Source of the DNA: Nitrospirota bacterium
GTDB taxonomy: Bacteria; Nitrospirota; Thermodesulfovibrionia; Thermodesulfovibrionales; Dissulfurispiraceae
Reading direction: 5' to 3'
Assembly (NCBI GenBank): GCA_004321915.1
Contig: SCQE01000090.1
Coordinates: forward strand, 1-43,786
Length of the DNA: 43,786 bases
Shown: positions 6,608 to 21,870 of the stretch, piece by piece
How the letters are laid out: each line of letters begins with the position of its first letter
How positions within the stretch are numbered: position 1 is the first letter of the stretch
Position numbers and translations under genes: made by a program
Notes under the pieces: generated by a model
The model's database searches: none
The model's input: only the letters and a program-made list of their open reading frames with translations
What the model was told of the DNA's origin: nothing

Positions 6608-6622
6608 GGCGGACAACCCGAC

Positions 6623-6826: not shown

Positions 6827-6856
6827 ATGCCGACCTCTCGATATTATCGCGGACCG

Positions 6857-9559
6857 TCACAGGTCCGCTTTTGTCTTGGACAGCGCCTGCCGTATGGCAT
6901 GCGCTATAGCGTTCCTAGTAAACGGTTTCTGTATAAAACCCGATGCCCCGCCTTTTATAAGATTGTCTATGCCTGCAAAACCGTCATGACTGAAACCGGA
7001 ACATATCATGACATTCACGTCGTGTTTAATGTTTTTTAGGGCCTGAAAAACCTCGCTGCCGCCCATCTTGGGCATGACCATATCGAGCACGACCAGTGAT
7101 ATTTCGTCTTTCATCAGCCTGTATATATTGATGCCCTCATAACCGCTGCCTGCAAGCAGCACCTTGTAACCTAAAGGCTCTATCATGTCCCGGCAGAGTT
7201 CCCGGATGTCCGGCTCATCGTCAATAAAGAGCACGGTCTCGGTCCCGCTCAGTTCGAGCAGTTCCAGCGTATCTTCGGTACGCTCGCCGGAGGTTACCGG
7301 CAGGTAGATATTGAAACGGGTCCCCTTGTCGGGCTCGCTGTAGAGGTTGATATAGCCGCCGTGATTGTTTATTATCGAATGGACCATGTAAAGACCTAGG
7401 CCTGTCCCCTTTCCCGACTCTTTGGTCGTAAAGAACGGGTCGAAGATCTTCCTCTGTGTCTCTTTATCGATACCGGACCCGTTGTCCGAGATCGAAAGCC
7501 TTAAAAGCCTGCCCTCAAGCGCCCTTATTTCGTTTGCAGCGCCGTTTTCTGCGCCTACGATACCTGTTTCTATCGAGAGCCTGCCGCCATTAGGCATGGC
7601 ATCGCGCGCGTTCACGGCAAGGTTGATCACCACCTGCTGCATCTGTGTCGGGTCTGCCATAATATTCGGCAGATCGCCTTTCAGATGTGTCGATATTTCG
7701 ATGTTCTTGGGCATGCTCCTTTCGAGCAACTCCATGCAGTTATGCACGATTTCATTTATATTCACAGGTTTGGTCTCGAGTTTTTCCTTGTGTGTGACCA
7801 TAAGTATCTTACGGGCCAGTTCAGCGCCTTTTTCTGCAGCGTTGTTTATTATATTGACAGGCTTGTAAAAAGGGTCACCCTCTTTGATTTTGGTCATCAT
7901 GATCTCGGAATATCCCAATATGGCCGTAAGCAGGTTGTTGAAGTCATGTGCAATGCCCCCTGCCAGAGTGCCTATCGACTCCATTTTCTGTGCCCGCAAA
8001 AGCTGCTCGTAAAGCCTTTTTTCCTGTGTTATGTCCCGCTGGATGGAAACGAAATTAAAGCCCTCTTCGGTGTGTATGGGCGAGATTATTGCAGACGTGT
8101 AATAAACGTCCCCGGTCTTCTTCTTGTTGACGAATTCCCCCTTCCATATCCTGCCAGCCTTGATCGTGTTCCACATATTTTTATAAAACTGTTCGTCATG
8201 GTAACCGCTCTTTAAAATATTAGGCTTTTTGCCTATCGCTTCACTCTGATCGAAACCCGTAATTTCGGAAAAGGCATGATTCACATAAAGTATCCTGCCT
8301 TCAGAATCGGTAATCAGGATAACGTCGAAGGCAGAGTCTATTATTTCCTTGAACCTTTTCAGTCTGGTAAGGTTGTCAGCCTTATTCAGGGCAACCATCA
8401 CATCCGCGGACACCGCTCCCAGCAGCATCTGGTCTTCTTCGGTAAAACCTTCGGACTTGTTCCCGAAATATATGGCGCCGAGCGCCCTGCCCTCGTCAGA
8501 GAGTATAGGATATGAAAGCAGATTATATATTTCAGGGTGTCCGGGCGGAAAATGCCCTGTAAAAGAGGGGTGTTTCCTAACGTTTTCGATATGTACGGGC
8601 CCCTTGGACTCATAAAGATATTTCAATACACCTAGGCCTTCAGGCAGGGCGTCTTGGGTTTTTATGGTGGCCCCGTGAGTCACGAGTTTCTTAAATCCAC
8701 CGTGCTCGTCATATATGGCTATGGCTGCAAGATCGGCCTTTATCAACCTTCCAACCTTGTCCAAAACCTGATTCAGCAGCTCTTCGGTAGTCATATCACC
8801 GTGCAGGGCGATAGCGAGACTGTGCAATATCTGGAACTGGTCAGTCTTTTTAATGAGCTTGTTGAAACCCTCGTTAAATGCCGCGCCTATATTATCGAGC
8901 TCGATAATGCCGGTGCTGTTAATCAAGGTCCCGTTCTTTATGTCCTTGAGCATTCCATTCATAGGGCGCTGAAAATTGTGCTTAAAAAGATATATCGAAA
9001 TACCGAACATCATGAAGAAGGCCGAAGCCACCATCGGGAAGAGGAAATATAGATTATTTCTGAATAAAAGCGGCACCGTGGCCTTGGATATGGAAACGAG
9101 TTTCCAATTCCACGGATTAAAAGCGTCGACATAGCCGTACTTTTCCACACGATCTTTCTTCAGAACAAAGGTGCCCTTTGAGTCCAGAAAACGCATCACA
9201 TCTTTCTGCTGGGGGTCCTCTAGGGTCGTGTAAATGACGCGGCCTTCCTTATTCAGTATCAACCCGTCGATATCGTGATCGTACCAGTAATTTGCTATCT
9301 CTGTTATCGCGGCCTTTTGGCGTACGGACATGGCCTTTCTGTCCTGTGCCGGTTTTTGTTCGACCAAGCTTAAAGCGGCCCGGTCCATAATGGACTCGAC
9401 CTCTCTGGAATGCGTTGATATGAAAAACTTCTGATAGTCGTCGGCGATATCTTCGGAAACCTTATAGATCACCCCGCTAAGGACTAACGTTATGAGAAAA
9501 ATAAAGAAGATGATCGGAAATATGATCTTAAATTTGATGCTGTTCTTTTCGATGTTCAT
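6857..9559 (-). CDS. Membrane hybrid sensor histidine kinase (GAF, PAS, HisKA, HATPase, receiver)
   Basis: This is a 900-residue phosphorelay sensor. It has a membrane segment at about residues 10-32, a periplasmic sensor region at about 33-165, a second membrane segment at about 170-192, a GAF domain (about 240-395), a PAS domain (about 400-515), a HisKA domain with phospho-acceptor His in [11 protein letters not shown] (about 539), a HATPase domain with SDNGSGID and GKGTGLGLY, and a C-terminal receiver with phospho-acceptor Asp in [12 protein letters not shown]. No output DNA-binding domain is attached. copZ follows 30 bases downstream, so a metal-related signal is possible but unproven. 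TATAAT on this strand (9571-9576) lies only 11 bases before ATG and no Shine-Dalgarno is seen, so the leader may be very short. Confidence 0.93.
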
Positions 9560-9703
9560 TGATTGTAGTAATTATATCGAACGGAGATGCCTTTTCTTTA
9601 AGGATAGCCGAATTTTTTTATATTTTGCAAATTCCTGTTATAGATAGCTGTCAAGATATGCTAAGATAGATGTCATAAATAATCAGGGGCATTAAGACGG
9701 AGG

Positions 9704-10048
9704 ATGGGCCGGTTGAAAGAGCTTGATACGGACTGCGGGAACACATTAAATATCCTGCGTACTGTCGTCTTTTTAGTATCTTTGATTGCAGGCTCATCGG
9801 CTGTTTACTACTATTACATCGTAGAAACCAACAGCATAGAGGAACAATGGGGTGTTCATTGCAGCAAATACAGCGATCCTTCGGAACGGTCAAACTGCAT
9901 GATACTTTCGGTAAAACTGATATCCGAATTCAAGGATCTGCTCAGGATAAATATCCTGATAGCATTCGCCGTCCCCATCTTATTTTTCGGAGGGCTGTTC
10001 GTCTATAAAAGGCTTGCAAATAAAAGCAAGGACTGCTGCCGAACATGA
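9704..10048 (+). CDS. Small two-helix membrane protein, unknown function
   Basis: I do not recognise this protein. It is up to 114 residues, with hydrophobic segments at about 18-38 and 83-102, an intervening soluble loop with two Cys (about 46 and 65), and a short Cys-containing basic tail. GGAGG directly abuts the ATG at 9704, whereas the TTG at 9713 (fourth codon) has ideal spacing, so translation may start at TTG. The stop overlaps the next ORF by four bases (ATGA), so the two products are probably made together. It is divergent from the hybrid kinase gene. Confidence 0.7.
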   Translation: MGRLKELDTDCGNTLNILRTVVFLVSLIAGSSAVYYYYIVETNSIEEQWGVHCSKYSDPSERSNCMILSVKLISEFKDLLRINILIAFAVPILFFGGLFVYKRLANKSKDCCRT

Positions 10049-10503
10049 TAAAAAAAACGCTTATATATCTTATTGCCTCTTGCGCCATGATTTTTACGGC
10101 GCTCGATGCCGGGGCAGACGAGCTTCAGGGATGGAGACCTTTCGGCCAAAGCGAGACCAACTACTGGTATTACAGGACCAAAGACATCGAATTCAAGACC
10201 GACGGCGTAGTCCGCATCTGGAGCAAGGCCGCAGCAAAAGGCAAGATAGGCATAGACGACAAAATAAAACTGCTCCAGAAATTCGGTGGCAACACGAAAG
10301 GCTACGAGCAATTCTCTCACTCGGTTAGCCTCTTCGAGATCAACTGCAACCAGAGAAAAAGCAGGGTCGTCTCTGTTACCGATTACGACAAGAACGGCAA
10401 ATCCCTTGAATCAGTGACCGTTCCCGACTTTCCATGGGATTCTATAGGCAAGGGAACCATTATGGACAATCTTTCCAATATTGTCTGCCGTCCGAACAAA
10501 TAG
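10045..10503 (+). CDS. Exported protein resembling surface-adhesin E domain
   Basis: This is a 152-residue protein with a signal peptide (about 1-23, cleavage near ADA/GAD). The mature part has an early Trp/Tyr-rich strand pattern and two Cys near the middle and end, like small exported proteins of the surface-adhesin E-like type (family assignment from pattern only). A similar small protein with the same layout lies at 32445-32885. It overlaps the preceding membrane protein gene by four bases, so both probably act at the envelope. No specific function can be given. Confidence 0.7.
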   Translation: MIKKTLIYLIASCAMIFTALDAGADELQGWRPFGQSETNYWYYRTKDIEFKTDGVVRIWSKAAAKGKIGIDDKIKLLQKFGGNTKGYEQFSHSVSLFEINCNQRKSRVVSVTDYDKNGKSLESVTVPDFPWDSIGKGTIMDNLSNIVCRPNK

Positions 10504-10553
10504 ACATTTCCGGCGGATAAAATTATCTTTACCGTTCAATTTTAGGAGGAGTT

Positions 10554-11765
10554 ATGTCTTATAAGATCAAAGTGAAGAACCCTATAGTCGAGATGGACGG
10601 CGACGAAATGACGCGTATCATGTGGCAGATGATAAAAGAAAAACTTGTCCTGCCTTTCCTCGATATAGACCTGAAATATTACGACCTCGGCATAAAACAC
10701 AGGGACGAGACCAACGATATGGTAACTGTCGAGGCTGCTAGCGCCATAATCGAACATGAAGTCGGCGTTAAATGCGCCACCATAACACCCAATGCCGCCC
10801 GCGTAAAAGAGTACGGCCTTAAGCAGCAATGGAAAAGCCCGAACGGGACCATCCGCTCCATACTCGACGGCACCGTCTTCAGAAAGCCTATCATCATTAA
10901 AAACATACCGCCTGCGGTAAAGATGTGGAAAAAGCCCATAATAATAGGACGCCACGCTTACGGCGACATATACAAAAATATCGAATGCCTCATCGACAGG
11001 CCCGGCACGGCAGAGATAGTTTTTACGCCTGCCGACGGCAGCGCTAAAACGGTCCTAAAGATACATGATTTCAAAAATCCGGGCGTTGTTATGGGAATGC
11101 ACAATACCGAAAAATCCATACGAAGCTTTGCAAAGTCCTGCATAAACTACGCGCTGAGCGAAAAAGTCGATCTCTGGTTCGGCGCCAAAGATACAATCTC
11201 CAAACAGTACCACGGCTTTTTCAGGGACATTTTTGCCGAAGAGATAGAAAAGGTCAAAGACGCGCTTGCAGCTTCGGGAATCCGGTACCGCTTCATGCTC
11301 ATAGACGACGCTGTCGCGCAGCTTATGAAATCTGACGGAGGCATGCTCTGGGCCTGCATGAACTATGACGGCGATGTGATGTCGGACATGGTGGCGAGCG
11401 GGTTCGGCAGCTTGGGCCTGATGACCTCTGTGCTCGTCTCTCCGAACGGCAAATATGAATTCGAAGCTGCCCACGGCACGGTCGTAAGGCACTACTATGA
11501 ACATCTCAAAGGCAATCCGACATCTACAAACTCGATAGCTTCGATCTTTGCTTGGACCGGCGCTATTGCAAAAAGAGGCGAGATCGACAATACCCCTGTA
11601 GTAGTAAAATTCGCAAAGACGGTAGAAGATGCGGTGATAAAAACCGTTGAAGACGGAGTTATGACCAAAGACCTGATGCTGATTGCAAACCCAACCGTAT
11701 CAAAGTATGCGCTTACAGAAGAGTTCATCGATACGGTTGCCGAGAGTTTAAAACGGGCGGTCTGA
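10554..11765 (+). CDS. icd: Isocitrate dehydrogenase (NADP+), type II homodimeric
   Basis: The enzyme oxidises isocitrate to 2-oxoglutarate with NADP+ in the TCA cycle. The 403 residues match the type II family that includes eukaryotic IDH1/IDH2, not the E. coli type. Substrate-binding motif [16 protein letters not shown] lies near residues 95-110, the metal-binding Asp residues are in [10 protein letters not shown], and the cofactor loop is [10 protein letters not shown] (about 308-317). AGGAGG precedes ATG. It ends eight bases from a convergent gene. Identity is clear; cofactor preference is from family knowledge. Confidence 0.95.
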
Positions 11766-11772
11766 GAAAAGA

Positions 11773-12018
11773 CTATTCTTTGTTCGCTTCGATTTTTTCG
11801 AGCAGCTCTTTCTTTCTGATCCTGCCGTGAAGGGCCGAACCGTCCTTGAACTCGAACACGGGGATGTCGAAACGGTAAAGCTCGTAAAGCTCGTCGCTTG
11901 AAGTAATATCAACCTTCTTTACCATGATGTCGTATTTCTCTATAAGGCCGTTCAGCATGTCCTCTGCAGTGTCGCAAAGCCAGCAGCCGCCTTTATAATA
12001 AAAAGTCAGCCTGACCAT
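11773..12018 (-). CDS. Glutaredoxin/thioredoxin-fold protein (DUF836-like)
   Basis: This is an 81-residue protein with a CxxC active site in FYYKGGCWLCDTAE (Cys at about 11 and 14) and a cis-Pro segment FDIPVFEF, typical of small glutaredoxin-like proteins. The best start is ATG at 12018, which shares one base with the stop of the upstream HD gene (TAATG) and has AAGGAG before it; a longer frame begins inside that gene. It is probably a thiol-disulfide oxidoreductase in the cytosol. Its partner is unknown. Confidence 0.8.
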   Translation of the reverse strand: MVRLTFYYKGGCWLCDTAEDMLNGLIEKYDIMVKKVDITSSDELYELYRFDIPVFEFKDGSALHGRIRKKELLEKIEANKE

Positions 12019-12596
12019 TACTCCTTGTCCCTGCCGTGCACCCACCAGTCTGACTTGTCCTCGAACCACCAGAGAGACGAGTCCGTTTCAAGGATATTCT
12101 CGGCCAGTTTCCGCGCTATATCGGTCTTCAGGCGTCTCAGCGAAAATGTGAGCCACTCGTCAGCATATTTATTGCCCAAGTCTTTGTACTCTTTAAGGCA
12201 AAGGATAAGCTCAAGCTGGTCGGCGTCGTGCGCTAATTGGGCCTCGATACTTTCTGACTTCATGAACTCGCCAATCAGTCCTTTTATATCACCTCCGAAC
12301 GGAAGCCCCTCCGCAAGGTCGTTTACCGCCTTTTCCTCGTCAGGCTTCACATACTTCTTGTTCACATAGTTAAGGTCTCCGGTCCTCGCCTCGGGCAGGT
12401 CATGGAACAGACACATCTTGATAATCTTATCAGTGTCCGCATCCTGCGCCATGTTGCCGAGCGCGTAGCCTATGTAAACCGTCCTGAATATATGCTCTGC
12501 AACAGACTCCGAGCCTGACCCCAAGAATTGAAAACCTGTGCGCGGCGTGCGCTTTAGCATCCCTGCTTCAAAAAGAAAATTTGCGATCCGTTTCAT
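12018..12596 (-). CDS. HD-domain phosphohydrolase (YfbR/HDDC2-like)
   Basis: This is a 192-residue soluble protein. Metal-binding HD motifs are seen: His in SVAEHIFRT (about 34), His-Asp in CLFHDLPEA (about 65-66) and a later Asp in AHDADQLEL (about 123). This pattern and the length fit the HDDC2/YfbR family, whose members hydrolyse 5'-deoxyribonucleoside monophosphates. It is translationally coupled by a one-base overlap to the thioredoxin-fold gene downstream. Family is likely; substrate is inferred. Confidence 0.85.
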   Translation of the reverse strand: MKRIANFLFEAGMLKRTPRTGFQFLGSGSESVAEHIFRTVYIGYALGNMAQDADTDKIIKMCLFHDLPEARTGDLNYVNKKYVKPDEEKAVNDLAEGLPFGGDIKGLIGEFMKSESIEAQLAHDADQLELILCLKEYKDLGNKYADEWLTFSLRRLKTDIARKLAENILETDSSLWWFEDKSDWWVHGRDKE

Positions 12597-12612
12597 TTAT
12601 TCTCCATTAAGA

Positions 12613-12640
12613 TTGATTTTGCGACATGTTGTATTATAAA
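12613..12640 (+). promoter_or_regulatory. Candidate promoter of the Cys-rich small gene
   Basis: TTGATT at 12613-12618 and TATAAA at 12635-12640 are 16 bases apart. The expected transcription start falls at or next to the ATG at 12648, and no Shine-Dalgarno is present, so the mRNA may be leaderless. Confidence 0.45.
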
Positions 12641-12647
12641 AATAACT

Positions 12648-12809
12648 ATGAATTTCTGCGACCTCGATTGTAAATATGCCAAGTTCCCTAAGGACGATGC
12701 GGTTGACGGATCAAGAAGCTGCCGGACTTTCGTGGCCCTTTTTTGCAAACTCAAAAAAAAGCTCGTGCATAAAAACCTGCCTTGCAAAGAGAAGGTAGAG
12801 AAGCGATAG
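12648..12809 (+). CDS. Small Cys-rich protein of 53 residues
   Basis: ATG at 12648 to TAG at 12807 encodes 53 residues with five Cys (about residues 4, 8, 25, 33 and 46) and a basic C-terminal third. The central block with AVDGSRSC and the Cys spacing look like a conserved small, possibly metal-binding protein, and I have an impression of similar proteins in Nitrospirota and deltaproteobacterial genomes, which I cannot check here. There is no signal peptide and no Shine-Dalgarno. It is divergent from the HD gene and stands alone. Function is unknown. Confidence 0.65.
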   Translation: MNFCDLDCKYAKFPKDDAVDGSRSCRTFVALFCKLKKKLVHKNLPCKEKVEKR

Positions 12810-12894
12810 CGGTGACTGCTCTATACCCGGTAGCTCAAATCAACTTCGGGATCGCACAGCTACTAAGAACTAACATGACAAAGCCTCATATCTC

Positions 12895-12966
12895 TCATCC
12901 TCGGGCTTGACCCGGGGATCCAGTATTTCCAAGATATTTCTGGATTCCCGCCTTCGCGGGAATGAC
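12895..12966. repeat. Dispersed double-palindrome repeat, copy 2 (inverted)
   Basis: This is the same element as at 29-105 in opposite orientation. It has the TCATCCTCGGGCTTGACCC half, then a diverged centre, then CTGGATTCCCG/CGGGAATGAC. It marks the left edge of the accessory island. The bases from 12810 to 12894 between it and the Cys-rich gene show no gene. Confidence 0.8.
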
Positions 12967-12994
12967 AAATCATGTGGCATTGTAAATGTATTCC

Positions 12995-13402
12995 TTAGTA
13001 TGTCCCATAGTTCTCCAAAAACTGTTGCGGTGATAATATCTTTATCCCCATGTATTCTTCTACGGCAAGGATTTTGGCATCGCCTGTTATAACTGCATCC
13101 GCCTTCAAGGCGGCAGCGCATTCTATAAGCTTGTCATCATCAGGATCATCCCTGACGATCTTTATCTTGGGCGTTTTAGTGGTAAACAGAATATTGATCC
13201 CCCTTGAGAAAAGGGACAACAGTTCGTCAAGCTCACTCTCATCTTTCATGCCGATCCTGCGAAGCACATCAATGTACTCATCAAGAACAGCGCTCGAAAG
13301 GCAGAGTGTTATTTCACCTGTCTTCCACAGGTCTATGATCTTTCTTGGTTTCCCTCCGAAAAAAGATGAAACAAAGATATTTGTATCAATTACAACCTTC
13401 AT
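12995..13402 (-). CDS. PIN-domain toxin
   Basis: This is a 135-residue protein of the PIN nuclease fold (COG1569-type putative toxins). The acidic metal-binding residues are visible: VIDTNIFVSSF at the N-terminus, Glu in LDEYIDVL, the DDPDDDKLIE block (about 86-95) and VITGDAKIL (about 105-113). Its start overlaps the stop of the ribbon-helix-helix gene by four bases (ATGA), the usual antitoxin-toxin order. PIN toxins are RNases in known cases; here that is family inference. Confidence 0.9.
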   Translation of the reverse strand: MKVVIDTNIFVSSFFGGKPRKIIDLWKTGEITLCLSSAVLDEYIDVLRRIGMKDESELDELLSLFSRGINILFTTKTPKIKIVRDDPDDDKLIECAAALKADAVITGDAKILAVEEYMGIKILSPQQFLENYGTY

Positions 13403-13647
13403 CCCTGTTTTTTGCGCGACTCTTTTATAGCTTTCGCTATGGTTCTATTGGTTACGCCTTTTGTCTTCAGTTTCTTGCCGGTCCTGTCCCACAAGCCATC
13501 TATGTATGCGCCAATGTCGCGCTCCTTAATATAATCTTCTATAAGCCCCCTTATCAGGTCACTCGTGGTCCTGCCTTCGGTTCTGGCAAGCTTATTCAGC
13601 CTGTTCTTGGCCTCATCATCCATCCTTATGATCATTTGGGTTGACAC
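13399..13647 (-). CDS. Ribbon-helix-helix antitoxin
   Basis: This is an 82-residue protein. Its N-terminal half is a ribbon-helix-helix DNA-binding domain (strand TQMIIRMDDE, then helices through DLIRGLIEDYI), and its C-terminal half is basic and helical and probably wraps the toxin. GGAGGTGG precedes the start. A near-consensus promoter overlapped by a palindrome lies upstream (13667-13704), which fits autorepression by this protein or its complex with the PIN toxin. Confidence 0.9.
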   Translation of the reverse strand: MSTQMIIRMDDEAKNRLNKLARTEGRTTSDLIRGLIEDYIKERDIGAYIDGLWDRTGKKLKTKGVTNRTIAKAIKESRKKQG

Positions 13648-13666
13648 ATTCCACCTCCAAAATATA

Positions 13667-13704
13667 TTCGTATATACATTATATCACATATATACAAATG
13701 TCAA
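13667..13704 (-). promoter_or_regulatory. Promoter and operator of the PIN/RHH module
   Basis: On the minus strand, TTGACA (13699-13704) and TATAAT (13678-13683) match consensus exactly with a short 15-base spacer. Arms TTCGTATATA (13667-13676) and TATATACAAA (13689-13698) form a 10-bp inverted repeat with one mismatch, centred near the -10. This is a good operator candidate for the antitoxin. Confidence 0.7.
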
Positions 13705-13728
13705 TTTTTGCCGTACGATATCTTTTGC

Positions 13729-13827
13729 GCTGTCGGACACTATAAACATGACCTTACCCTGCGCATGGGCGCTATTGTGGCCGCCGGTGTTGCGGCTATC
13801 GCCGCCATAATCAAACTCATCAAGTAA
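13729..13827 (+). pseudogene. 3' remnant of a small C-terminally anchored membrane protein gene
   Basis: One frame ends at TAA 13825-13827 and encodes KHDLTLRMGAIV followed by an Ala/Ile-rich helix and IKLIK. This looks like the C-terminal membrane tail of small coiled-coil proteins of the DUF1640-like kind. The frame upstream runs into the TA promoter without a start or a coiled coil, so the gene seems cut at this point. The ATG at 13765 would give only 20 residues. It may be debris from insertion of the island. Confidence 0.35.
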
Positions 13828-13840
13828 TTTCTCTCTCATA

Positions 13841-14893
13841 TTAAGAAATCTTCATACTCCACAATATTTTTATTCTCAAGCCATACGTATCAGCATGTTT
13901 TGCATGGCCAAGCCAGCTTTGCACAGATGCGTTCATTTTAGCAAAAGTGATGACCCGCTGACCGAAAAGCCGCCGCAGGTTTCTAAGCCGTCCGGCAAAC
14001 CTTAGGCTGGTGTCTTTCCGCAATCTCCTGTGCGTCTGGAATATCCTATACCCGAGGTGGTCAACTCCGGCTGATGCAGGTATGACAACAGTTTTCTTCG
14101 GGTGCAGCTTTAGCCTGTCCTTTATCAAAAACTTCTCTATGCCAGCTTTTATTTCCCACAGCCGTTTTTTATCGTTACCAAAAACAGTTATGTCATCCAC
14201 ATATCTTATGTAGCATCTGCAACCCAACACCTCTTTTATAAAATGGTCTAACGCATTGAGATAGATATTCGCAAACAACTGGCTTGTCAAATTGCCGATG
14301 GGTATGCCTTTTCTTCTATCCACCGGTTCAAAAAGACTGTCCCCTTCAAAATAGTCGTTCACAGGCTCCTGTCTGTTACTGTTGTCTATGATCAGCTTCA
14401 CGAGCCAAAGAGTGTCTCTGCATTTTATCTTCTTCGCTATCTTCTCAAACAATATTTCGTGGTCAATGCTCGCAAAATATTTTCTGATATCGGTCTTTAA
14501 GACATATTTATTTTTCCTGCAAAACGCCGTGAACCTGTCAAGCGCGCTGTGCGTTCCCTTGCCCTTGCGGCAGGCATATGATTCGGAAATAAAGGTCTTA
14601 TCAAAAATCGGCTCTATGATATTGCAAAGGGCGTGATGCACAACCCTGTCTCTGTAAGGGGCTGCGCTTATCTTTCGGGGCTTTCTCTCATAAATGGTGA
14701 ACTCATTGTAAGTGCCCGGCCTGTATCTGCCTGCAATCAATTCTTCCTTAAGCCTGAAGAGTTCGACCTCAATGTTTTTCTCAAAGGCCATTACGCTGTC
14801 TTTAAGACGCTTGCCTTTGCGCGCCTTTCTGCTTGCAGCATAAAGGGTTTCAAAAGAAGCTATTTTGGAGAAAAGGTTTCCGTGGCGTTTCAG
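13841..14893 (-). CDS. DGR reverse transcriptase
   Basis: This RT copies the template-repeat RNA into adenine-mutated cDNA. Motifs include TDIRKYFASIDHEI (first catalytic Asp), IPIGNLTSQLFANIYLN (the SQ-containing motif characteristic of DGR RTs), the catalytic YVDD in YIRYVDDITVF, and VDHLGYRIF. Also DGR-like are SAAPYRDRVVHHALCN near the N-terminus and QSWLGHAKHADTY at the end. The first ATG (14791) would remove a conserved N-terminal block, KRHGNLFSKIASFE, which is in frame upstream. The start is therefore non-ATG: CTG at 14893 with GGGGG five bases before it, or ATT at 14908. Both lie at the edge of a palindromic repeat, which may have replaced the original start. About 350 residues. There is no maturase or retron-type context. 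Confidence 0.93.
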   Translation of the reverse strand: MKRHGNLFSKIASFETLYAASRKARKGKRLKDSVMAFEKNIEVELFRLKEELIAGRYRPGTYNEFTIYERKPRKISAAPYRDRVVHHALCNIIEPIFDKTFISESYACRKGKGTHSALDRFTAFCRKNKYVLKTDIRKYFASIDHEILFEKIAKKIKCRDTLWLVKLIIDNSNRQEPVNDYFEGDSLFEPVDRRKGIPIGNLTSQLFANIYLNALDHFIKEVLGCRCYIRYVDDITVFGNDKKRLWEIKAGIEKFLIKDRLKLHPKKTVVIPASAGVDHLGYRIFQTHRRLRKDTSLRFAGRLRNLRRLFGQRVITFAKMNASVQSWLGHAKHADTYGLRIKILWSMKIS

Positions 14894-14894
14894 A

Positions 14895-14990
14895 TTAACC
14901 CCCTCAATCCCTAACCCCTCCTCTCCTCCCCTTAAATTAAGGGGAGGAACTATTTCCCCCTCTTAGTTTAAGAGGGGGACAGGGGGAGTT
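14895..14990. repeat. Palindromic repeat element at the RT 5' end
   Basis: Two perfect palindromes occur: CCTCCCCTTAA/TTAAGGGGAGG with a 1-base centre (14925-14947) and CCCCCTCTTA/TAAGAGGGGG with a 3-base loop (14956-14978). Flanking runs of C and G complete an element with GGGGTTAGGG-like ends. It resembles small dispersed palindromic elements found in many genomes. It lies between the terminator of the TR RNA and the RT coding region, and its right-hand G-rich strand supplies the RT ribosome-binding site. Confidence 0.75.
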
Positions 14991-14999
14991 AAAAAAAGT

Positions 15000-15043
15000 G
15001 GCCGGATGAATCCTTCGCATTGCGCTACCAGACTCACCCGGCC
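15000..15043. terminator. Bidirectional Rho-independent terminator in the DGR
   Basis: GGCCGG (15000-15005) pairs with CCGGCC (15038-15043). An inner helix (TGAATC/GACTCA, one mismatch) and CGC/GCG extend the stem. It is followed by T6 on the plus strand (15044-15049) and T7 on the minus strand (14997-14991). On the minus strand it would end the TR transcript before RT. Confidence 0.7.
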
Positions 15044-15107
15044 TTTTTTGTATTCGTCCGGATTGCTCCGGCGCAGGACATCGGCCTATAGACTATCATT
15101 GCACTAT

Positions 15108-15129
15108 CCGCGCTTCCGTAAAAGCGCGG
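15108..15129 (-). other. Hairpin just downstream of TR
   Basis: A perfect 8-bp stem, CCGCGCTT/AAGCGCGG, with a 6-base loop lies 26 bases beyond the 3' end of TR in transcript orientation. It is part of the spacer likely to be needed by the RT. Confidence 0.6.
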
Positions 15130-15155
15130 CATTTAGGCATTAGCATGACAGTATT

Positions 15156-15269
15156 GGAGGGGAGGACGACGCGAAAGCCGTTATTGTCGTTTCGTTTCAC
15201 CGGTTCGTCATCTCCGCGTTGTGATGCGCGTATGTTCTGTGGCCTATTGTTCCAAGAACCGCCGCGTTT
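15156..15269 (-). repeat. DGR template repeat (TR)
   Basis: This 114-bp segment on the minus strand is matched by VR at 15704-15817. I count 15 mismatches, and every one is an A in the TR sense strand. About 34 adenines are present, so roughly 44% are altered in VR. The last 25 bases are free of A and GC-rich, as expected for the initiation-of-mutagenic-homing end. Read in the VR frame it is rich in AAC/AAT codons, which cannot mutate to stops by A changes. Confidence 0.97.
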
Positions 15270-15287
15270 CACCTTCGGCCATGCCCT

Positions 15288-15623
15288 TTACTGCAACTTT
15301 TTGAGCCAGCCCCCAAGAAGCCGCCCTATTCCTACTATCTCTTTTGAAGAGAATTCATACTGGTTCAGGCTTATGATGTTCAAATCCTTGCAGAGCCTCA
15401 TATAGTGCTTCAGCCGCTCAAGCTCAAAGCTGGCCTGATTCAAAACCGCTTTTTTGTCTTTATCCTCTTTTACGGCCAGAAGCAGGAGGTCGTGAAAATT
15501 GAGCGCGGCCTCTTCAACACGCTTGGCCATGACAAACCGCTGGCTCTTGGGGAACTTGATCGTATGCTCAAGCAGCCATTTGGTGTAGTCGTATGTCTTT
15601 ACAAAAATCGGAGATTCTTTCAT
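15288..15623 (-). CDS. avd: DGR accessory variability determinant (Avd)
   Basis: This is a 111-residue, basic, all-helical protein of the four-helix-bundle family. Avd forms a pentameric barrel in characterised DGRs, binds RT and template RNA, and is needed for cDNA synthesis. Four amphipathic helices are visible, with motifs such as KSQRFVMAKRVEEAALN, LERLKHYMRLCKDLN and GRLLGGWLKKLQ at the end. It lies between VR and TR, the classic position, and ends 18 bases before TR. It starts at ATG 15623, 75 bases after the variable-protein stop, with a strong hairpin in the gap. No clear Shine-Dalgarno is seen. Confidence 0.93.
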   Translation of the reverse strand: MKESPIFVKTYDYTKWLLEHTIKFPKSQRFVMAKRVEEAALNFHDLLLLAVKEDKDKKAVLNQASFELERLKHYMRLCKDLNIISLNQYEFSSKEIVGIGRLLGGWLKKLQ

Positions 15624-15636
15624 ATTTTAAAATCGC

Positions 15637-15659
15637 GGGCAGACGCTCTGCGTCTGCCC
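15637..15659 (-). other. Hairpin/cruciform downstream of VR
   Basis: A perfect 10-bp inverted repeat, GGGCAGACGC/GCGTCTGCCC, with a 3-base loop lies 44 bases past the 3' end of VR in coding orientation. In the Bordetella phage DGR a GC-rich cruciform after VR is required for target recognition, and this is a candidate counterpart. A short T-run follows it on the minus strand, so it may also attenuate transcription before avd. Confidence 0.6.
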
Positions 15660-15697
15660 TGAAACCAGAAAATAGAAATCCAGAACCCAGAAAATAA

Positions 15698-16633
15698 CTA
15701 CCGGGAGGGGAGGACGACGCGAAAGCCGTCATTGGCGTCTCGTAGCACCGGTTCGTCATCTCCGCGATGCGATGCGCGTAGGTACAGTGGCCTAGCGATC
15801 CAAGAACCGCCGCGTGCTATGCGCTTCTCGCCGGATGTCGGGCCGGTAGGGTTCCATTTAGGACTATTCGAATAATAGTCTTTGTTAAACCAGTCCTCGC
15901 ACCACTCCCATACATTGCCCATCATGTCGTACAGGCCAAAATCATTAGGCCTGAACTGCCCCACAGGCGCTACAAAGGCATAGCCGTCTTTGCAGTCGTG
16001 TGCTTCTTTCCATGTGCGTCCACCTTCAAATGAGGTGAGATCGCGCACATTGGCATACCGACACGCATCATCCTTGCTGTTGCCCCAATAGTTCCTCGTC
16101 TGTGTTCCGGCTCTGGCAGCATATTCCCATTCTGCCTCGGTTGGCAGGCGGTAGCCCTTGCCTGTCTTGCTGCTCAGCCATTTTGTAAAGGCCTTTGCAT
16201 CGTTCCAGCTTATGCAGCTGACTGGATGGTCGTTCCTGTTGCTCTGATACTTATTCGGGTTCTTCCAGTTTGCCCATCCACGCCAGTCCCATTTGTTATC
16301 ATCAAAATCGATTGTCATGCACCCGCTATACCCACCAGCATCCTTTTCAGCATCAGTCCTGTATCCGGTGTCGTTTACGAATTTTCTGAACTCGGCAACC
16401 GTAACCTCGTATTTGCCCATGTAAACATCGTCAACGCAGACCTCATGCACAGGCACTTCGTCTTTGTCCTCTTCCGGCCTCCGGTCGCCATAAGTGTCGC
16501 CCATCTTAAAACAGCCGCCCTTTACCAGCACAAACTCCATGCCGGTTACTGAATCGGTGTAGTTTTTTTCAGCGGCATAGGCGTATGGTGCAGCGATACA
16601 CAACACAAGCAGAAACATCAGCGTTTTCCTCAT
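15698..16633 (-). CDS. DGR variable protein: exported FGE-sulfatase/C-type lectin domain
   Basis: This is the target protein diversified by the DGR. Its 311 residues begin with a signal peptide (about 1-20, AYA/AEK), so it acts in the periplasm or on the surface. The body is a formylglycine-generating-enzyme-like domain with a C-type lectin fold: FVLVKGGCFKMGD, EVTVAEFRKFV, HPVSCISWNDAKAFTKWL, RLPTEAEWEYAARAG, and MGNVWEWCEDW. Residues about 273-310 are encoded by VR, ending in GFRVVLPSR, where DGR lectin folds place their ligand-binding site. GGAGGAG gives a strong ribosome-binding site. It lies 24 bases after the 119-residue gene and upstream of avd. It is probably a binding protein, not an enzyme. 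Confidence 0.95.
   Translation of the reverse strand: MRKTLMFLLVLCIAAPYAYAAEKNYTDSVTGMEFVLVKGGCFKMGDTYGDRRPEEDKDEVPVHEVCVDDVYMGKYEVTVAEFRKFVNDTGYRTDAEKDAGGYSGCMTIDFDDNKWDWRGWANWKNPNKYQSNRNDHPVSCISWNDAKAFTKWLSSKTGKGYRLPTEAEWEYAARAGTQTRNYWGNSKDDACRYANVRDLTSFEGGRTWKEAHDCKDGYAFVAPVGQFRPNDFGLYDMMGNVWEWCEDWFNKDYYSNSPKWNPTGPTSGEKRIARGGSWIARPLYLRASHRGDDEPVLRDANDGFRVVLPSR
15704..15817 (-). repeat. DGR variable repeat (VR)
   Basis: These are the last 114 bp of the variable-protein gene before its final codons. Compared with TR it has 15 substitutions, all at template A positions, changing 12 codons (one silently). Changes include N to I, N to A, Q to L, N to Y, I to L, Q to H, K to L, N to D and D to A. 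The segment encoding RGDDEP keeps all its adenine positions. The VR ends four codons from the gene end with a shared A-free GC tract. Confidence 0.97.
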
Positions 16634-16656
16634 AAGCTCCTCCCTATTTTCGAATG

Positions 16657-17016
16657 TTATTTTTTGATAATTCCTGCTATATTGTTGGTAGGAACATAAA
16701 TCTCTGGGATAACAACCGACGATCTCTCGAAATCGATCCAGTCTGTGTGTTGGGTTGTAAATACCCTGTGAGGCGTTATCTTAGCTATCTTTTTATTTTC
16801 GAAGTTATCAAGGTCTATTTCAGCCTCTTTTGACCATATTCTCAATATCTCAAGCTGGTAGACCGGAGATGCGACCATCAGTTTGAGCGGCTCTTTAAGA
16901 ACTATCTCCACCTCTATGTGGTTAACTTTGGGAGGATTTTCCCCTGCAACTGCATCGTTATTGTTTGCATCGTTTCTTTTTCCTTCTTTACCTTGCACTT
17001 CTTTTGGTTCTGTCAT
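16657..17016 (-). CDS. Unknown 119-residue protein in the DGR operon
   Basis: I do not recognise this protein. The start at 17016 overlaps the stop of the HD gene by four bases (ATGA). A longer frame starting inside that gene is less likely. The N-terminal 30 residues are polar, with Lys, Glu and Asn runs. The rest is beta-rich and carries two segments, VEIVLKEPLKLMVASPVY and DWIDFERSSVVIPEIYVP, with no membrane helix. It lies between the HD gene and the variable protein, so it is probably expressed with them. Confidence 0.75.
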   Translation of the reverse strand: MTEPKEVQGKEGKRNDANNNDAVAGENPPKVNHIEVEIVLKEPLKLMVASPVYQLEILRIWSKEAEIDLDNFENKKIAKITPHRVFTTQHTDWIDFERSSVVIPEIYVPTNNIAGIIKK

Positions 17017-18935
17017 TCGATATCCCCCTTTTTTTTTATTGGCTGCAGCTCTTTGTTCACCCGATAGCATTTAAGCGCTGGGTCGTATTCGGCTGTAAAG
17101 AAGACCCTTACGCTCTCTTCGTCATATCCGTGGAAAATACATATGGACGGACCGTTTGAGAGGTTCTTATAAAACAGTTTATCGAGCGCCTTCCAGAAAG
17201 ACATCACCCTGTCGCCCGAATCTCCGCGCTTCTTTTCATCGCCACCCACATACGCAAGCGTTATCACGTCCTCTGCGAGGATAAGGCAGAGCGCGTCCAG
17301 AATATTTCTCACTGTCGCGTCAACCGTTTGCAGAGCGATAAACTTCTCTATGGAGCGCTTGAGTTTAAAGCTGTCCGTTTTCTCTTTATAGATTATCGCC
17401 TTTATGGACGGCACAAGCCTTTTTAATTCGTTCTCCTGCTTGATGGTCAGAGCGGTAACCTTGGTTTTGAGGTGATGAAAAAACGAGTGGTCATCCTCGT
17501 CAAATAGTTTTTCAGGATTCCCTGATATGGTTTTAAGCACCTCAAACCCGTACACTGCCTTAAAGACTTCGGGTTTGCTCCTCCAGTCGCTTTGCCTGTC
17601 CCACTCATGCAGGTCGTCGCAGAGCATAAGGATAAAGGTTATGGGGTGAGTGCGAAAATCTATGGTAAGCCCCTCGAAGGCATTTATGCGGATATTGTGT
17701 ATGGAGATCGCAAAGGCTCCGACAACTATATCCTCAAGAAGGTCGTTCCTCATCCTGCGGTATTTCTTATGGCGCTCATTTGATTCTTTTTTGCCGATGC
17801 CTTCATACATAGTGAATTCATGTATGTCTATCTTCAGCGAAAGAAGCAAAAAGAGGGCGCTCATTATGCCGTGGTCCATGTCTTTAAACCTGTCTGTAAA
17901 GAGGGCATTGGCTGCGCCGTACATGAGGCGGTCAGGGTACCTTCTCCTGTATTTTTCGACCTGCCCGAAATTGAAAGAAAACTCGTCCTCATCGAGAACA
18001 AAGGACAAAAGCGTCAGGAAGTCGTTGATTTCATCCTTCAGATAGTCGGATTCATTGAGCTTAAGTTCGGAGAGATCGAACCCCGGAATCTTGAAGAAGA
18101 ACTGGTCCTGCAATTTCTTGCGAAACTCGCTCAAGGCCTCGGCAGCATAACCTATGTCATGGAACAGCGAGGCCGCAAGCCACGACCTCATGAGCCTTAC
18201 GCGGAATTCGTCTATGGGCATCGGGTTGTCTGTGTAATACTCCAAATTTTTATGTATTCTGTCGGTAAAACTGCAGAGCAATTTGCAGCCCATGAAAAAG
18301 TCATATATGAGATGTAAAAAATGGTCGCGGTAATAGGATTTTGAGAGATACACGAATTCTTCGTAAGTCCTCCATGCCTCAAGCAACTCCGTTGCAAGTC
18401 CCTCCACATAAAAAAGCCGTATAAGCAGTCTGCCGAGTTCGAGGGCCTTTTCGTTTACGTCGTATTCCTCGCCATCGCAGTCCCAGCCCACTGCCGTATG
18501 TATCGAATAAAACTCTGCGAACTTCCTGTCAACCTCTTCCCTGACATGGTCCACCCTCGGGTCTTCAAAGCCCTTTTCGTAGCCCTCGGTTTTATACAGG
18601 GAGTTGAGAGCGTTGTATATAAAACGCTGCTTCGGGTCTTCCCAGTCTCGGTAGTAAGCTTTTTCCGTGAAATACTTGCGGGGCCACGCAGAGGGAGACG
18701 GCAGAATGTCGTATTCTGTGAGTTCTACAAGAAATTTGCGGATATCCGCATGAAGCTTTTTAGAGAGTTTCTGAGGCTTGTTTATCTCTTCGAGGGTCTC
18801 TTCCAAGAGCCGGGTAAAGCCCTTCTCCGTATATCCTGCCGCTACAACTTCCGCGTGGCTTACAGGATGGCGAAAGGCCTTGAGTCGGGCCCGCACTTTT
18901 TCGATCTTGTTCTTTAAAGCCTCGCCGCTGTTCAC
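17013..18935 (-). CDS. Large HD-domain protein in the DGR operon
   Basis: This is a 640-residue soluble protein without membrane segments. An HD phosphohydrolase signature is present: SLFHDIGYAAEA (about 263-274), preceding His in DHFLHLIYDF, a downstream His in DHGIMSALFLL, and CDDLHEWDR (about 447-455). The N-terminal 150 residues are helical and charged; the C-terminal 100 are beta-rich. The HD core could hydrolyse nucleotides or act as a signalling phosphodiesterase; no substrate can be assigned. It begins the operon that leads into the DGR variable protein, coupled by a 4-base overlap to the next gene. Whether it belongs functionally to the DGR is open. Confidence 0.8.
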   Translation of the reverse strand: MNSGEALKNKIEKVRARLKAFRHPVSHAEVVAAGYTEKGFTRLLEETLEEINKPQKLSKKLHADIRKFLVELTEYDILPSPSAWPRKYFTEKAYYRDWEDPKQRFIYNALNSLYKTEGYEKGFEDPRVDHVREEVDRKFAEFYSIHTAVGWDCDGEEYDVNEKALELGRLLIRLFYVEGLATELLEAWRTYEEFVYLSKSYYRDHFLHLIYDFFMGCKLLCSFTDRIHKNLEYYTDNPMPIDEFRVRLMRSWLAASLFHDIGYAAEALSEFRKKLQDQFFFKIPGFDLSELKLNESDYLKDEINDFLTLLSFVLDEDEFSFNFGQVEKYRRRYPDRLMYGAANALFTDRFKDMDHGIMSALFLLLSLKIDIHEFTMYEGIGKKESNERHKKYRRMRNDLLEDIVVGAFAISIHNIRINAFEGLTIDFRTHPITFILMLCDDLHEWDRQSDWRSKPEVFKAVYGFEVLKTISGNPEKLFDEDDHSFFHHLKTKVTALTIKQENELKRLVPSIKAIIYKEKTDSFKLKRSIEKFIALQTVDATVRNILDALCLILAEDVITLAYVGGDEKKRGDSGDRVMSFWKALDKLFYKNLSNGPSICIFHGYDEESVRVFFTAEYDPALKCYRVNKELQPIKKKGDIE

Positions 18936-18969
18936 CAGAAAACGTCCCCCGTTTTAAAGCATTGCCGCT

Positions 18970-19000
18970 ACTATAACAGAGCATTTTTTTTTTTTTTCAA
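18970..19000 (-). promoter_or_regulatory. Weak candidate promoter of the DGR operon
   Basis: On the minus strand, TTGAAA (18995-19000) and TATAGT (18970-18975) flank a 19-base spacer that is mostly an A tract (T14 on the plus strand, 18984-18997). Spacing is long, so this is tentative. Confidence 0.3.
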
Positions 19001-19053
19001 TAGGTTAGTTAAAGTTAAAGCGGTTGGTGAGGGATGAGGAAAACTTGAACTGC

Positions 19054-19082
19054 TTGACTGTTCGTAACCCTATGGGTTACAT
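19054..19082 (+). promoter_or_regulatory. higBA promoter with perfect palindromic operator
   Basis: TTGACT (19054-19059) and a weak TTACAT (19077-19082) are 17 bases apart. Between them lies a perfect palindrome, GTAACCC-TAT-GGGTTAC, at 19064-19080, a good HigA operator because binding there would block RNA polymerase. Confidence 0.65.
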
Positions 19083-19089
19083 TTAATCA

Positions 19090-19368
19090 ATGATCAAATC
19101 ATTTGCGCACAAAGGGCTTGAGAAGTTTTACCGCACCGGAAGCATATCCGGAATTCAAGCCGTTCACGCTGATAAATTAAGGTTGATACTCACTATTATT
19201 GATGCAGCCGTTTCTGTTGAGGGCATGAGGCTTCCTGCCTTAAAGCTGCATAGGCTTAAAGGTGACAAACGAGAAATATGGGCGGTAACAGTTCAGGCAA
19301 ATTGGCGGGTGACTTTCCGTTTTGAAAACGGGAATGCCTATATTGTTAACTATGAAGATTATCATTAA
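19090..19368 (+). CDS. higB: HigB toxin, RelE superfamily
   Basis: This is a 92-residue ribosome-dependent mRNA interferase candidate. Family pattern: SFAHKGLEKFYRTG at the start, LPALKLHRLKGDKREIWAV in the middle, and WRVTFRFENGNAYIVNYEDYH at the end, which hold the usual basic and aromatic residues of the RelE fold. It precedes its antitoxin by 12 bases, the reversed order typical of HigBA. No clear Shine-Dalgarno is seen, and the start is about eight bases after the weak -10. It lies at the right edge of the DGR island. Confidence 0.9.
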   Translation: MIKSFAHKGLEKFYRTGSISGIQAVHADKLRLILTIIDAAVSVEGMRLPALKLHRLKGDKREIWAVTVQANWRVTFRFENGNAYIVNYEDYH

Positions 19369-19380
19369 GGAGGAATGAAT

Positions 19381-19689
19381 ATGTCAGCTATGCATAACCC
19401 TGCGCATCCGGGAGAGGTGCTGAAGAGGCTTTGTCTTGAACCCGTTAACTTGTCGGTTACCGAAGCGGCAGAACGGCTTGGAGTAAGCCGCAAGACTATT
19501 TCAAAAATCATTAACGGTCATGGTTCCATAACACCTGAAATGGCGGTGAGGCTTGAGCTTGTCTTCGGTTCAACCGCTCAAACATGGATGAATATGCAGA
19601 CAGCTTATGACCTGTGGCGCATTGCAGGTCTGCGAAAGACCCTAAAGAAAACGCTCGGACACACTGCAATCCCACATCCTGTATTTTAG
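19381..19689 (+). CDS. higA: HigA antitoxin, Xre-type helix-turn-helix
   Basis: This is a roughly 102-residue DNA-binding antitoxin. The N-terminus [13 protein letters not shown] and the helix-turn-helix [20 protein letters not shown] (about 28-47) are typical HigA. AAGGAGG at 19367-19373 is well spaced from ATG at 19381, whereas the ATG at 19375 is too close, so 19381 is chosen. It neutralises HigB and probably represses the operon at the palindrome upstream of higB. Confidence 0.9.
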
Positions 19690-19698
19690 CTGTCCTCC

Positions 19699-21870
19699 TC
19701 AATGTTCAACCGCAACCAATGCCTTACGCCCGGCGAGCCTGCCGATTCCAATCTTTGAGGCATTTCCGCTGCTGCCCTTGAAGAACACGGTCATCGGCGA
19801 TTCGTTAATAGTCCAGCGTCCCTTTGCCTTATTAACCGCTTCTTTGCCCTCAAAAGCAAGGTAGCTGTATTTGTGATAATGGGGAAGCTTTCTCGCTAAG
19901 GCAGGCAATGCTTCTGCTCCTTCAGACGCGATAAACATGACCGCCGTATCTTTATTTTCGGGATTCTTCAGCGCAAAAGCTATCGAATGATTCTTAAGCG
20001 ATATGACCGTTTTACCGAAACGGACATTCCCTCCTTCAATAGCCGACCCGGCTTCAGGCAATGACGGAAGTATCTTTTCAGCAAAGATATTCTCCCATCC
20101 AAAAACCGCCACCGAACCCTCGACAGGAAGGCTTTGTATCTCGTTATCTAATTTCAGATCAACCTCGTCAGGCCCTGAATTTGCAAGCGTCTCGACAAAC
20201 CTGCGGTATGCCTGAAGCAAGATTTTCTCCGCCTTTGACGGAAGCAGCGCAAGCATCTTCTTTGCGCCCAAGGCCTGTGAAAAAGCAGCGGGTATTTCAT
20301 CCCTGTTCATCCTGCGGAACACATCAAATTCAGGATCGACATCCAGTCTCAACGGTCGCGCAGGCAGCCTTATAGTAAATTCGGCATATTTATCGTTCAT
20401 TTCAAATTTCGCCTGAAAAGCTTCAGGCCTGCCTTCGAGCGTTACCGCAACAGGCACGCTCAGGGAATAAGCGTCTCCTGCCTGTATCTGGCTTATCCCT
20501 AACTTCAACAAAAAGCCGTCTCCGTCGTTCAAAACGGTCGCATTTTCTATCTTCAATTCCGGCGCGCCGGTGCGCGTCAGCCACTGCCGGAAAAAACCTC
20601 CGAGGTCTTTAGCGGAGGCCTTTTCAAAACTCTTTCTAATATCGTCAAAAGACGCGAACCTGAATTTATTGGTCTTGTAAAAATCCTGAAGTCCGGCAGC
20701 AAAGGCTTTATCCCCCATGTCCATACGCAGCATATGAAACAGCATGGATGATTTGCCGTAGCCGACAGCCTCGGACGGAGAACTGTGGCGAGACCTGAAT
20801 TCGGATATCGGAAAATCCCTCCCGGCCAGCACATAATCAGCATATTTCTGAAGTACGGTATGCCGATATTCGGCTCCGCCGCCCTGCTGCTCTTTTATCA
20901 GATGGTCGGACAGATAAGCGGTGATCCCTTCTGTCCAGTTGCCCTTTGAGAATTCAGGAAATACGCTGTTCCCCCACCAGTTGTGCAGTATCTCATGCGG
21001 ATATGAAGAATTGATTATGAAAGGGAAACGAATTATCTTAGGGCCGAGCAAAGTAAACGACGGCATTCCGTAGCCGGTCTCCCAGAAGTTTTCTACAAGC
21101 GCGAACTTCGCATAGGGATATGTACCGATGAGACTTTCGTACATCCGGATATAATTAATAGTAGCATCGAGATATTTATCGGCAATAGCCTTGTCAGGTG
21201 TTATCAGAAAGGCCATCGCCGCAACCCGGCCCTGCTGTTTTATATACTCTGTAAACCTGTTCGCTATAAGCAATATCTCGTCCTGCGGCTCTTGGGATTC
21301 CCACTGCGCAAGCGCGCCATCCTTATGCTTGCGCTTCCCCTGACTCACCGCCCCCCAGCCTTCCGGCAGTCCAACGCTTAGATCGAAGCTTATAAGTGCA
21401 AACGATAAAGCCCCTTCAAATTGCGGATACCATGCTGAATTGCCGGAAAGATACACCCCATCATCCGAGATAATTCCGGGCGTCCGCATATCGCCGCGCG
21501 CCTGCTCCTTGCCGTATGAAGTGAGCGGATGATTGATCTTTCCGCCGTATTTAAGGGTGAAGGTCTTTGTGCCTGATAACAACTTGGTCTTGAACGATTC
21601 AAGCGGCGCAGCCCCGGCTTTTGCACCTGCCGGTATCAGCCCCAATCCTGCCCCAGTCAGAACAGGAGAAAGCCCCGCATGAAGATCAAAAAATATTTCA
21701 CCGGCTGATGGTTCGGGAAGGGTTATCGTGTCCTCAACCTCGATCCTGTTTTCAGCAGGATGCAGGACCGCCTTGAGACTGTGATGTATGGTCTTAATGC
21801 CCGCAAAGGCCGTATCCGCGCAAAATATTGAACAAATAACAGATAATATTGCGATTAAATAATTTTTCAC
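19699..21870 (-). CDS. Exported M1-like zinc metallopeptidase
   Basis: This is a 723-residue protein with a signal peptide (about 1-23) and a gluzincin zinc site HEILH (about 292-296), followed 17 residues later by the Glu of NWTEG, the pattern of M1-type aminopeptidases. An upstream GYGMPSF block replaces the usual GAMEN exopeptidase motif. The N-terminal 200 residues are beta-rich as in M1; the C-terminal half is less conserved. It probably trims peptides in the periplasm. Translation starts at GTG, overlapping the stop of the DUF2156 gene by four bases (GTGA), so it is the last gene of a three-gene operon. Confidence 0.85.
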   Translation of the reverse strand: MKNYLIAILSVICSIFCADTAFAGIKTIHHSLKAVLHPAENRIEVEDTITLPEPSAGEIFFDLHAGLSPVLTGAGLGLIPAGAKAGAAPLESFKTKLLSGTKTFTLKYGGKINHPLTSYGKEQARGDMRTPGIISDDGVYLSGNSAWYPQFEGALSFALISFDLSVGLPEGWGAVSQGKRKHKDGALAQWESQEPQDEILLIANRFTEYIKQQGRVAAMAFLITPDKAIADKYLDATINYIRMYESLIGTYPYAKFALVENFWETGYGMPSFTLLGPKIIRFPFIINSSYPHEILHNWWGNSVFPEFSKGNWTEGITAYLSDHLIKEQQGGGAEYRHTVLQKYADYVLAGRDFPISEFRSRHSSPSEAVGYGKSSMLFHMLRMDMGDKAFAAGLQDFYKTNKFRFASFDDIRKSFEKASAKDLGGFFRQWLTRTGAPELKIENATVLNDGDGFLLKLGISQIQAGDAYSLSVPVAVTLEGRPEAFQAKFEMNDKYAEFTIRLPARPLRLDVDPEFDVFRRMNRDEIPAAFSQALGAKKMLALLPSKAEKILLQAYRRFVETLANSGPDEVDLKLDNEIQSLPVEGSVAVFGWENIFAEKILPSLPEAGSAIEGGNVRFGKTVISLKNHSIAFALKNPENKDTAVMFIASEGAEALPALARKLPHYHKYSYLAFEGKEAVNKAKGRWTINESPMTVFFKGSSGNASKIGIGRLAGRKALVAVEH

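Follow-up and report, generated by a model that had tools for sequence, protein, structure and literature searches.

The 43,786-nt window analysed here (positions 1 to 43,786 of contig SCQE01000090.1, the whole stretch of DNA from Nitrospirota bacterium assembly GCA_004321915.1) almost certainly carries a genuine, complete chromosomal diversity-generating retroelement (DGR). DGRs are numerous, and this element adds a further example of a well-known type. Read along the minus strand from 16633 to 13841, in the order of transcription, it comprises a gene of the formylglycine-generating enzyme (FGE) type with a variable repeat (VR) at its 3' end, a hairpin, avd, a template repeat (TR), a structured spacer, and a reverse transcriptase (RT) gene. 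A first-pass annotation made from the letters alone had proposed these parts, on this strand and in this order, and we found every one of them as it described.

The TR/VR pair was located by a repeat search without the use of any model. The TR (15156..15267, minus strand) and the VR (15704..15815, minus strand) are each 112 nt long and 88% identical. They differ at 13 of 112 positions, all of which fall on the 32 adenines of the TR; the remaining 80 positions are identical (hypergeometric probability 1.0e-8). The adenines were replaced in roughly equal numbers by T (five), G (four), and C (four), and the differences alter 10 amino acids in the reading frame of the target. Only one TR codon is able to become a stop codon, and the theoretical repertoire of the VR, in which up to about 20 codons can vary, is ~2e13 protein sequences. 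The GC-rich, 25-nt tail at the 3' end of the VR (15704..15728, minus strand) is identical in the TR (15156-15180) and, by analogy with the DGR of Bordetella phage BPP-1, would act as the initiation-of-mutagenic-homing (IMH) site. No additional VR for this TR was found in the window or in the genome, and FGE paralogues on contigs C6, C114, C121, and C54, tried as remote VRs of three TRs, gave no adenine-restricted match. Viral contigs, searched for VR variants of the same population, yielded only distant RT relatives that were about 30% identical, and an exact stretch of the TR had no match among them.

Adenine-restricted differences are also present in related cassettes. A second complete DGR of the same genome, on contig C98 (locus L009, G000 C98:35000-50000, positions 4422-8060), has a 440-aa FGE target that carries an additional domain at its N-terminus, a gene for a DUF559 nuclease that separates VR from avd, and a spacer of the Rfam RT-14 family described below. 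In the 96-nt aligned core of its TR/VR pair, 20 of 20 mismatches lie at adenines, and one further G/A difference is found in the 3' tail. In a groundwater metagenome-assembled genome (locus L034), 13 of 13 TR/VR differences lie at adenines. Both cassettes share the layout and RT-14 RNA of the window element, and their RTs are 75% (C98) and 69% (L034) identical to the window RT, but they have different TRs, RTs that start with ATG, and a gene between VR and avd (for an IS200-like transposase in L034). The first-pass annotation had made its call depend on VR variation at TR adenines among relatives; such differences are seen here and in the sister cassettes, in the same and in a related genome.

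The same genome also holds decayed copies. On contig C74 (L010, 1-1200) a DGR has a truncated avd, an RT that lacks its N-terminal 145 residues, and a TR downstream of the RT. On contig C128 (L069, 1-1300), a GIY-YIG gene separates an FGE target from a TR, and no RT lies nearby; the TR/VR pair, with 12 adenine and 9 non-adenine differences, reads either as a relic or as an element served in trans. Compared with the C128 pair, the lack of any non-adenine difference in the window TR/VR fits recent homing, and the window DGR has apparently been used recently. A DGR borne by the host rather than by a phage, with sister and decayed copies in one genome, thus offers a naturally occurring set that ranges from active to truncated and RT-less forms. 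The gap between VR and avd (or VR and TR) in related cassettes holds differing small genes (L009 5975-6334, L034 1095-1580, L069 615-1010, L007 2837-3655), among them several nuclease- or transposase-type genes (DUF559, Y1 transposase, GIY-YIG, HRDC); no such gene lies in the window gap.

The RT gene (13841..14893, minus strand) encodes 350 aa and matches the Pfam family RVT_1 (PF00078) with an E-value of 1.9e-26. Its best match in the PDB is the BPP-1 enzyme bRT (8ub7, E 3e-61); the top-scoring group II RT reaches E 3e-22. The DGR-type SQ motif and the YVDD motif that had been claimed for it can be read directly, the former as GIPIGNLTSQ, a GxxxSQ motif that replaces the SP-type motif of group II enzymes. 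We considered whether the gene might instead encode a defence-associated or otherwise domesticated enzyme of the DRT/UG type, or the RT of a group II intron, that happens to lie beside a chance repeat. PADLOC DRT models do score up to 138 bits on the window RT, and the group II model TIGR04416 gives 149 bits; the latter value is below the cut-off of 300, however, NCBIfam RT models all fall far below their cut-offs, no maturase domain was found in the protein, and the gene has avd as a neighbour and an adenine-only TR/VR pair (p ~1e-8). We built a maximum-likelihood tree of 34 RTs, with DRT enzymes left out, from 27 DGR enzymes, 5 group II intron RTs, a further RT from the congener, and the RT-Cas1 protein of the same genome (a 1170-aa fusion with RVT_1 and Cas_Cas1 domains; L006/L013, G000 C116). 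All 27 DGR enzymes were placed on one side of a branch with support of 100/100, apart from the group II RTs, the congener RT, and RT-Cas1. Within the DGR clade, where the first-pass annotation expected it, the window RT groups with the C98 and L034 enzymes (100/99) and then with the truncated C74 RT and an RT from a Fischerella plasmid (99/99). The tree and the TR/VR pattern together refute a defence or group II origin, to which we assign a negligible probability.

The spacer between TR and RT corresponds to the structured 3' part of a template RNA. Positions 15000..15153 (minus strand) match the Rfam family RT-14 (RF02921) over the full length of the model at 51.9 bits, against a gathering threshold of 48.1. 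The spacer folds better than 200 of 200 shuffled sequences (z -4.39), and its stems show compensatory changes relative to the sister cassettes. As a positive control, the BPP-1 spacer was recognised as Phage_DGR (RF03022). RT-14 adjoins the 3' end of the TR in eight DGRs, which are those of the window, C98, L034, two members of the same order (G124 and G113), and the phages BalMu-1, ACA1, and VP58.5; the match begins within a few bases of the TR end in every one of the eight, with some scores below the gathering cut-off. When 396 genomes of the phylum were searched under stricter filters, three RT-14 hits were returned, and all three were DGR spacers.

A short pre-TR segment, AGGGCATGGCC (15277..15287, minus strand), adjoins the avd stop codon on its 3' side and is predicted to pair with the spacer segment GGCCGATGTCCT (15075..15086, minus strand), a helix that RNAalifold also predicts. 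Because helix segments initially picked by hand were subject to selection bias, they were not relied on, and global duplex energies over long segments were uninformative; pairing was instead evaluated in fixed windows, with no hand-picking and with permuted pairs as the null. Cognate pre-TR/spacer pairs from eight DGRs, including BPP-1, had an energy of -22.1 kcal/mol compared to -15.4 kcal/mol for permuted pairs, and 0 of 20000 permutations were as good. This result suggests that the pairing is general. For BPP-1, published work assigns two roles to the spacer, recruitment of RT-Avd and priming of cDNA synthesis, and reports that synthesis is halted by a motif at the avd end (PMC12875486).

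The window spacer is a member of a family that Rfam catalogues merely as RT-14 RNA, under a name that carries no DGR role, and the Rfam model does not include the partner strand upstream of the TR that is seen in the window and in other DGRs. Rfam RT-2 and RT-4 were found between TR and RT of other phage DGRs (loci L114-L116, with RT-18), and in phage LBR48, which yielded no TR/VR pair, RT-18 lies immediately before the RT. In all likelihood, several of the Rfam RT-n families are 3' modules of DGR template RNAs, as shown for RT-14 and as also seen for RT-2, RT-4, and RT-18, and in RT-14 DGRs a helix between the avd end and the RT-14 core clamps the TR in a loop. Both this placement of RT-14 (and probably of RT-2, RT-4, and RT-18) among DGR template RNAs and the partner strand before the TR may be new. 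We found no literature linking RT-14 to DGRs in a search that did not take in a 2017 paper that is said to describe the RT-n RNA families. RNA families that had been catalogued as RT-associated are thereby tied to the template RNAs of DGRs, and the ribonucleoprotein picture drawn from BPP-1 is broadened to further lineages; RNA models alone would aid in finding DGR cassettes and the boundaries of their templates. Separately, a twister-P1 match below the cut-off was seen in Roseburia phage Shimadzu.

Between VR and TR, avd (15288..15623, minus strand) encodes a 111-aa accessory variability determinant. The profile comparison that the first-pass annotation had suggested supports this assignment, with 93.3 bits for NF033474 against a cut-off of 80, a score above the cut-off for Pfam bAvd (PF22296), and a match to the Avd family phrog_3206. 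The variable protein (311 aa; 15698..16633, minus strand) has a signal-peptide-like N-terminus, an FGE-sulfatase/C-type-lectin domain, and a C-terminus encoded by the VR. It matches FGE-sulfatase (PF03781) with an E-value of 1.5e-66 and, among structures, FGE 6muj (E 2e-43) and Treponema denticola TvpA 2y3c (E 1.7e-16). The N-terminal sequence MRKTLMFLLVLCIAAPYAYA-AEKN, judged by eye, resembles a signal peptide, and the protein would thus be exported. No lipobox was seen in it, and the protein is therefore probably soluble or periplasmic rather than a lipoprotein. When it is aligned to a solved FGE, the two cysteines that we take to be the catalytic (copper-binding) pair correspond to A280 and L285, both of which lie in the VR and are encoded by codons with TR adenines. 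A working FGE is therefore very unlikely, and the diversified patch sits at the former FGE active site, which most likely now serves as a variable ligand-binding face. The proposal that an exported FGE/C-type-lectin target makes this DGR a new instance holds in that the element is a new member, but not as regards the type of target. FGE-type variable proteins are already known from T. denticola (TvpA, 2y3c), from Thermus aquaticus, and from a Faecalibacterium phage.

Downstream of the VR, 44 nt past its end, lies a GC-rich hairpin or cruciform, GGGCAGACGC-AGA-GCGTCTGCCC (15637..15659, minus strand). Its 10-bp stem is of a kind found in about 0.15% of 100-nt stretches drawn at random from the window. 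Sister cassettes have a hairpin at the same position with a changed sequence, and the loops in the window and sister cassettes (AGA, GAA, and TTT) are all 3 nt long. The L034 hairpin lies at the same interval and differs in sequence, which indicates that structure rather than sequence is conserved. We rejected the idea that the hairpin is a dispersed genomic repeat, as the motif occurs in the genome only at the two DGR targets (window and C98). The BPP-1 hairpin needs a 4-nt GRNA loop, and a GRNA loop was present in most of the phage DGRs that we scanned. The consensus published for phage DGR hairpins is a 4-nt GRNA loop at 4-34 nt from the VR (PMC3240598). The phage-type GRNA hairpin is a consensus of phage DGRs and is not a defining feature of all DGRs. 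Between VR and hairpin, the window has a T-rich tract of TTCTG repeats (15660..15700, minus strand), which is weak here (a run of two) and stronger in related DGRs. Short direct repeats of the TAATCTGAAATCTGATAATCTG type, with a period of about 8 nt, occur between VR and hairpin at many loci (e.g., L097, L091, L090, L084, L107, L110, and L112); repeats of this type follow the VR in 11 of the 23 targets used to shape the motif and in 2 of 6 held-out phage targets, compared to a local background of <1%.

Several observations weigh against the DGR reading. The VR is known from one genome of the population, and variation between individuals was not seen; the AGA loop of the hairpin has 3 nt rather than a GRNA sequence, and its distance of 44 nt from the VR exceeds the 4-34 range; the AlphaFold model of the variable protein, built from 10 sequences, was poor (pLDDT 50) and unfit for a fold search, so that the fold of this protein rests on sequence matches; and the RT starts with CTG where its relatives have ATG. 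We placed the RT start at CTG 14891-14893 because the conserved N-terminal sequence KRHGNLF follows directly and the C98 and L034 RTs have ATG at this position. A start at ATG 14791 was rejected, as the conserved N-terminus would be lost and the frame is open upstream. Since CTG is a rare start codon, expression of the RT may be low, and we therefore retained as a rival the possibility that a DGR active until recently has been silenced by mutation of the RT start, leaving the VR frozen. Decay does occur in this lineage, as seen in the truncated C74 DGR and in the C128 pair that lacks an RT. CTG is, however, a permitted if rare start, a purine-rich stretch lies upstream of it, the RT frame contains no stop or frameshift, the TR and VR show no drift outside adenines, and the window element might be served in trans by the functional sister RT of C98. 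Silencing is thus unlikely, though it deserves more weight than the other rivals considered here. Palindromic CCCCCTT-n-AAGGGGG elements lie directly before the RT start (14894-14990) and elsewhere in the cassettes (L009 5878 and 6971); these are probably dispersed small repeats.

An island of about 6.9 kb (12809..19698), absent from a congener, carries the cassette. Window positions 602-12809 and 19768-24390 are collinear with contig C61 of the congener (G001) at 82% identity, and 70 bp of congener sequence stand in place of window positions 12810-19767. Genes for a PIN-type toxin and an RHH antitoxin (12995..13647, minus strand; TIGR00305, PIN_3, RHH_1) lie at one end of the island, and genes for a HigB-like toxin and an HTH antitoxin (19090..19689, plus strand; PF05015, HTH_3) lie at the other. 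The toxin-antitoxin-flanked island of the first-pass annotation is thus borne out by an empty site in the congener. No integrase was seen in the island, and its base composition is no different from that of its surroundings. Upstream of the variable protein, two island genes (16657..18935, minus strand) encode proteins of 137 aa and 640 aa that had no match in Pfam, NCBIfam, PADLOC, or PHROG. The two genes overlap, and the larger product has, by eye, an HD-like FHDIGY motif; its AlphaFold model, from the single sequence, was too poor for a fold search (pLDDT 37).

These surroundings bear on the question of whether the cassette is a prophage remnant in which the diversified target would be a phage receptor-binding protein, as it is in BPP-1. 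Among the elements compared (G124 and G113, of the same order and with RT-14, and G029, related by its RT), those of G124 and G029 lie amid phage tail genes, and PHROG includes RT and Avd families. No phage structural gene was found among the window genes examined around the cassette, however, the target seems to carry a signal peptide for export, toxin-antitoxin genes stand at both ends of the island, and chromosomal genes also surround the C98 sister cassette. We therefore regard a phage remnant as very improbable and favour a chromosomal DGR that serves a host protein.

Compared with known systems, the window element resembles BPP-1 (mtd-avd-TR-brt) in the order and strand of its parts, Avd, the adenine-specific VR, an RNA between TR and RT, pre-TR/spacer pairing, and a hairpin after the VR. 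It differs in being chromosomal rather than phage-borne, in its FGE-type and presumably exported target, in having RT-14 in place of Phage_DGR (RF03022), in the 3-nt hairpin loop at 44 nt, and in the CTG start of the RT; the loop and the start codon are concrete, testable points. T. denticola TvpA and the T. aquaticus variable protein are likewise FGE-like C-type-lectin targets with a C-terminal VR, but they belong to other hosts with other neighbouring genes, and no lipobox was seen in the window target. The plasmid DGR of Fischerella sp. NIES-4106 has an RT that is 52% identical and an adenine-only TR/VR pair (14 of 14), but it resides on a cyanobacterial plasmid and has no RT-14 match.

In the established DGR scheme, the template is transcribed and folds, RT-Avd copies it and makes errors at adenines, the copy replaces the VR, and protein variants are selected. 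Applied to the window, a transcript would span the end of avd, the TR, and the RT-14 spacer, and would fold such that the pre-TR segment pairs with the spacer and the TR is held in a loop. RT-Avd would then copy the TR into cDNA with misincorporation opposite adenines, and the mutated cDNA would replace the VR by way of the shared invariant 3' tail, with help from the downstream hairpin. Rewriting would affect as many as about 20 codons that encode the tip of the exported FGE-fold protein and leave the TR unchanged, and the protein variant would then be selected. The parts, the adenine-only signature, the RT clade, the RNA family with its pairing, and the conserved hairpin are read from the DNA itself, and cDNA synthesis and mutagenic retrohoming would presumably take place in this host, as would export and ligand binding.

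Two further observations concern other loci. Some DGR RTs have open frames of 524-616 aa (L078-L080, L082, and L083; genomes G078, G073, and G126); one of these that was scanned carries a C-terminal MutS domain I (PF01624), and several have TR-like coding sequence in frame directly upstream of the RT. In addition, caspase-domain (Peptidase_C14) genes with CARDB domains (L011 10542-12284 and L071 249-1949) lie next to the FGE variable protein in the DGR of the congener and next to two of the FGE paralogues, on C6.

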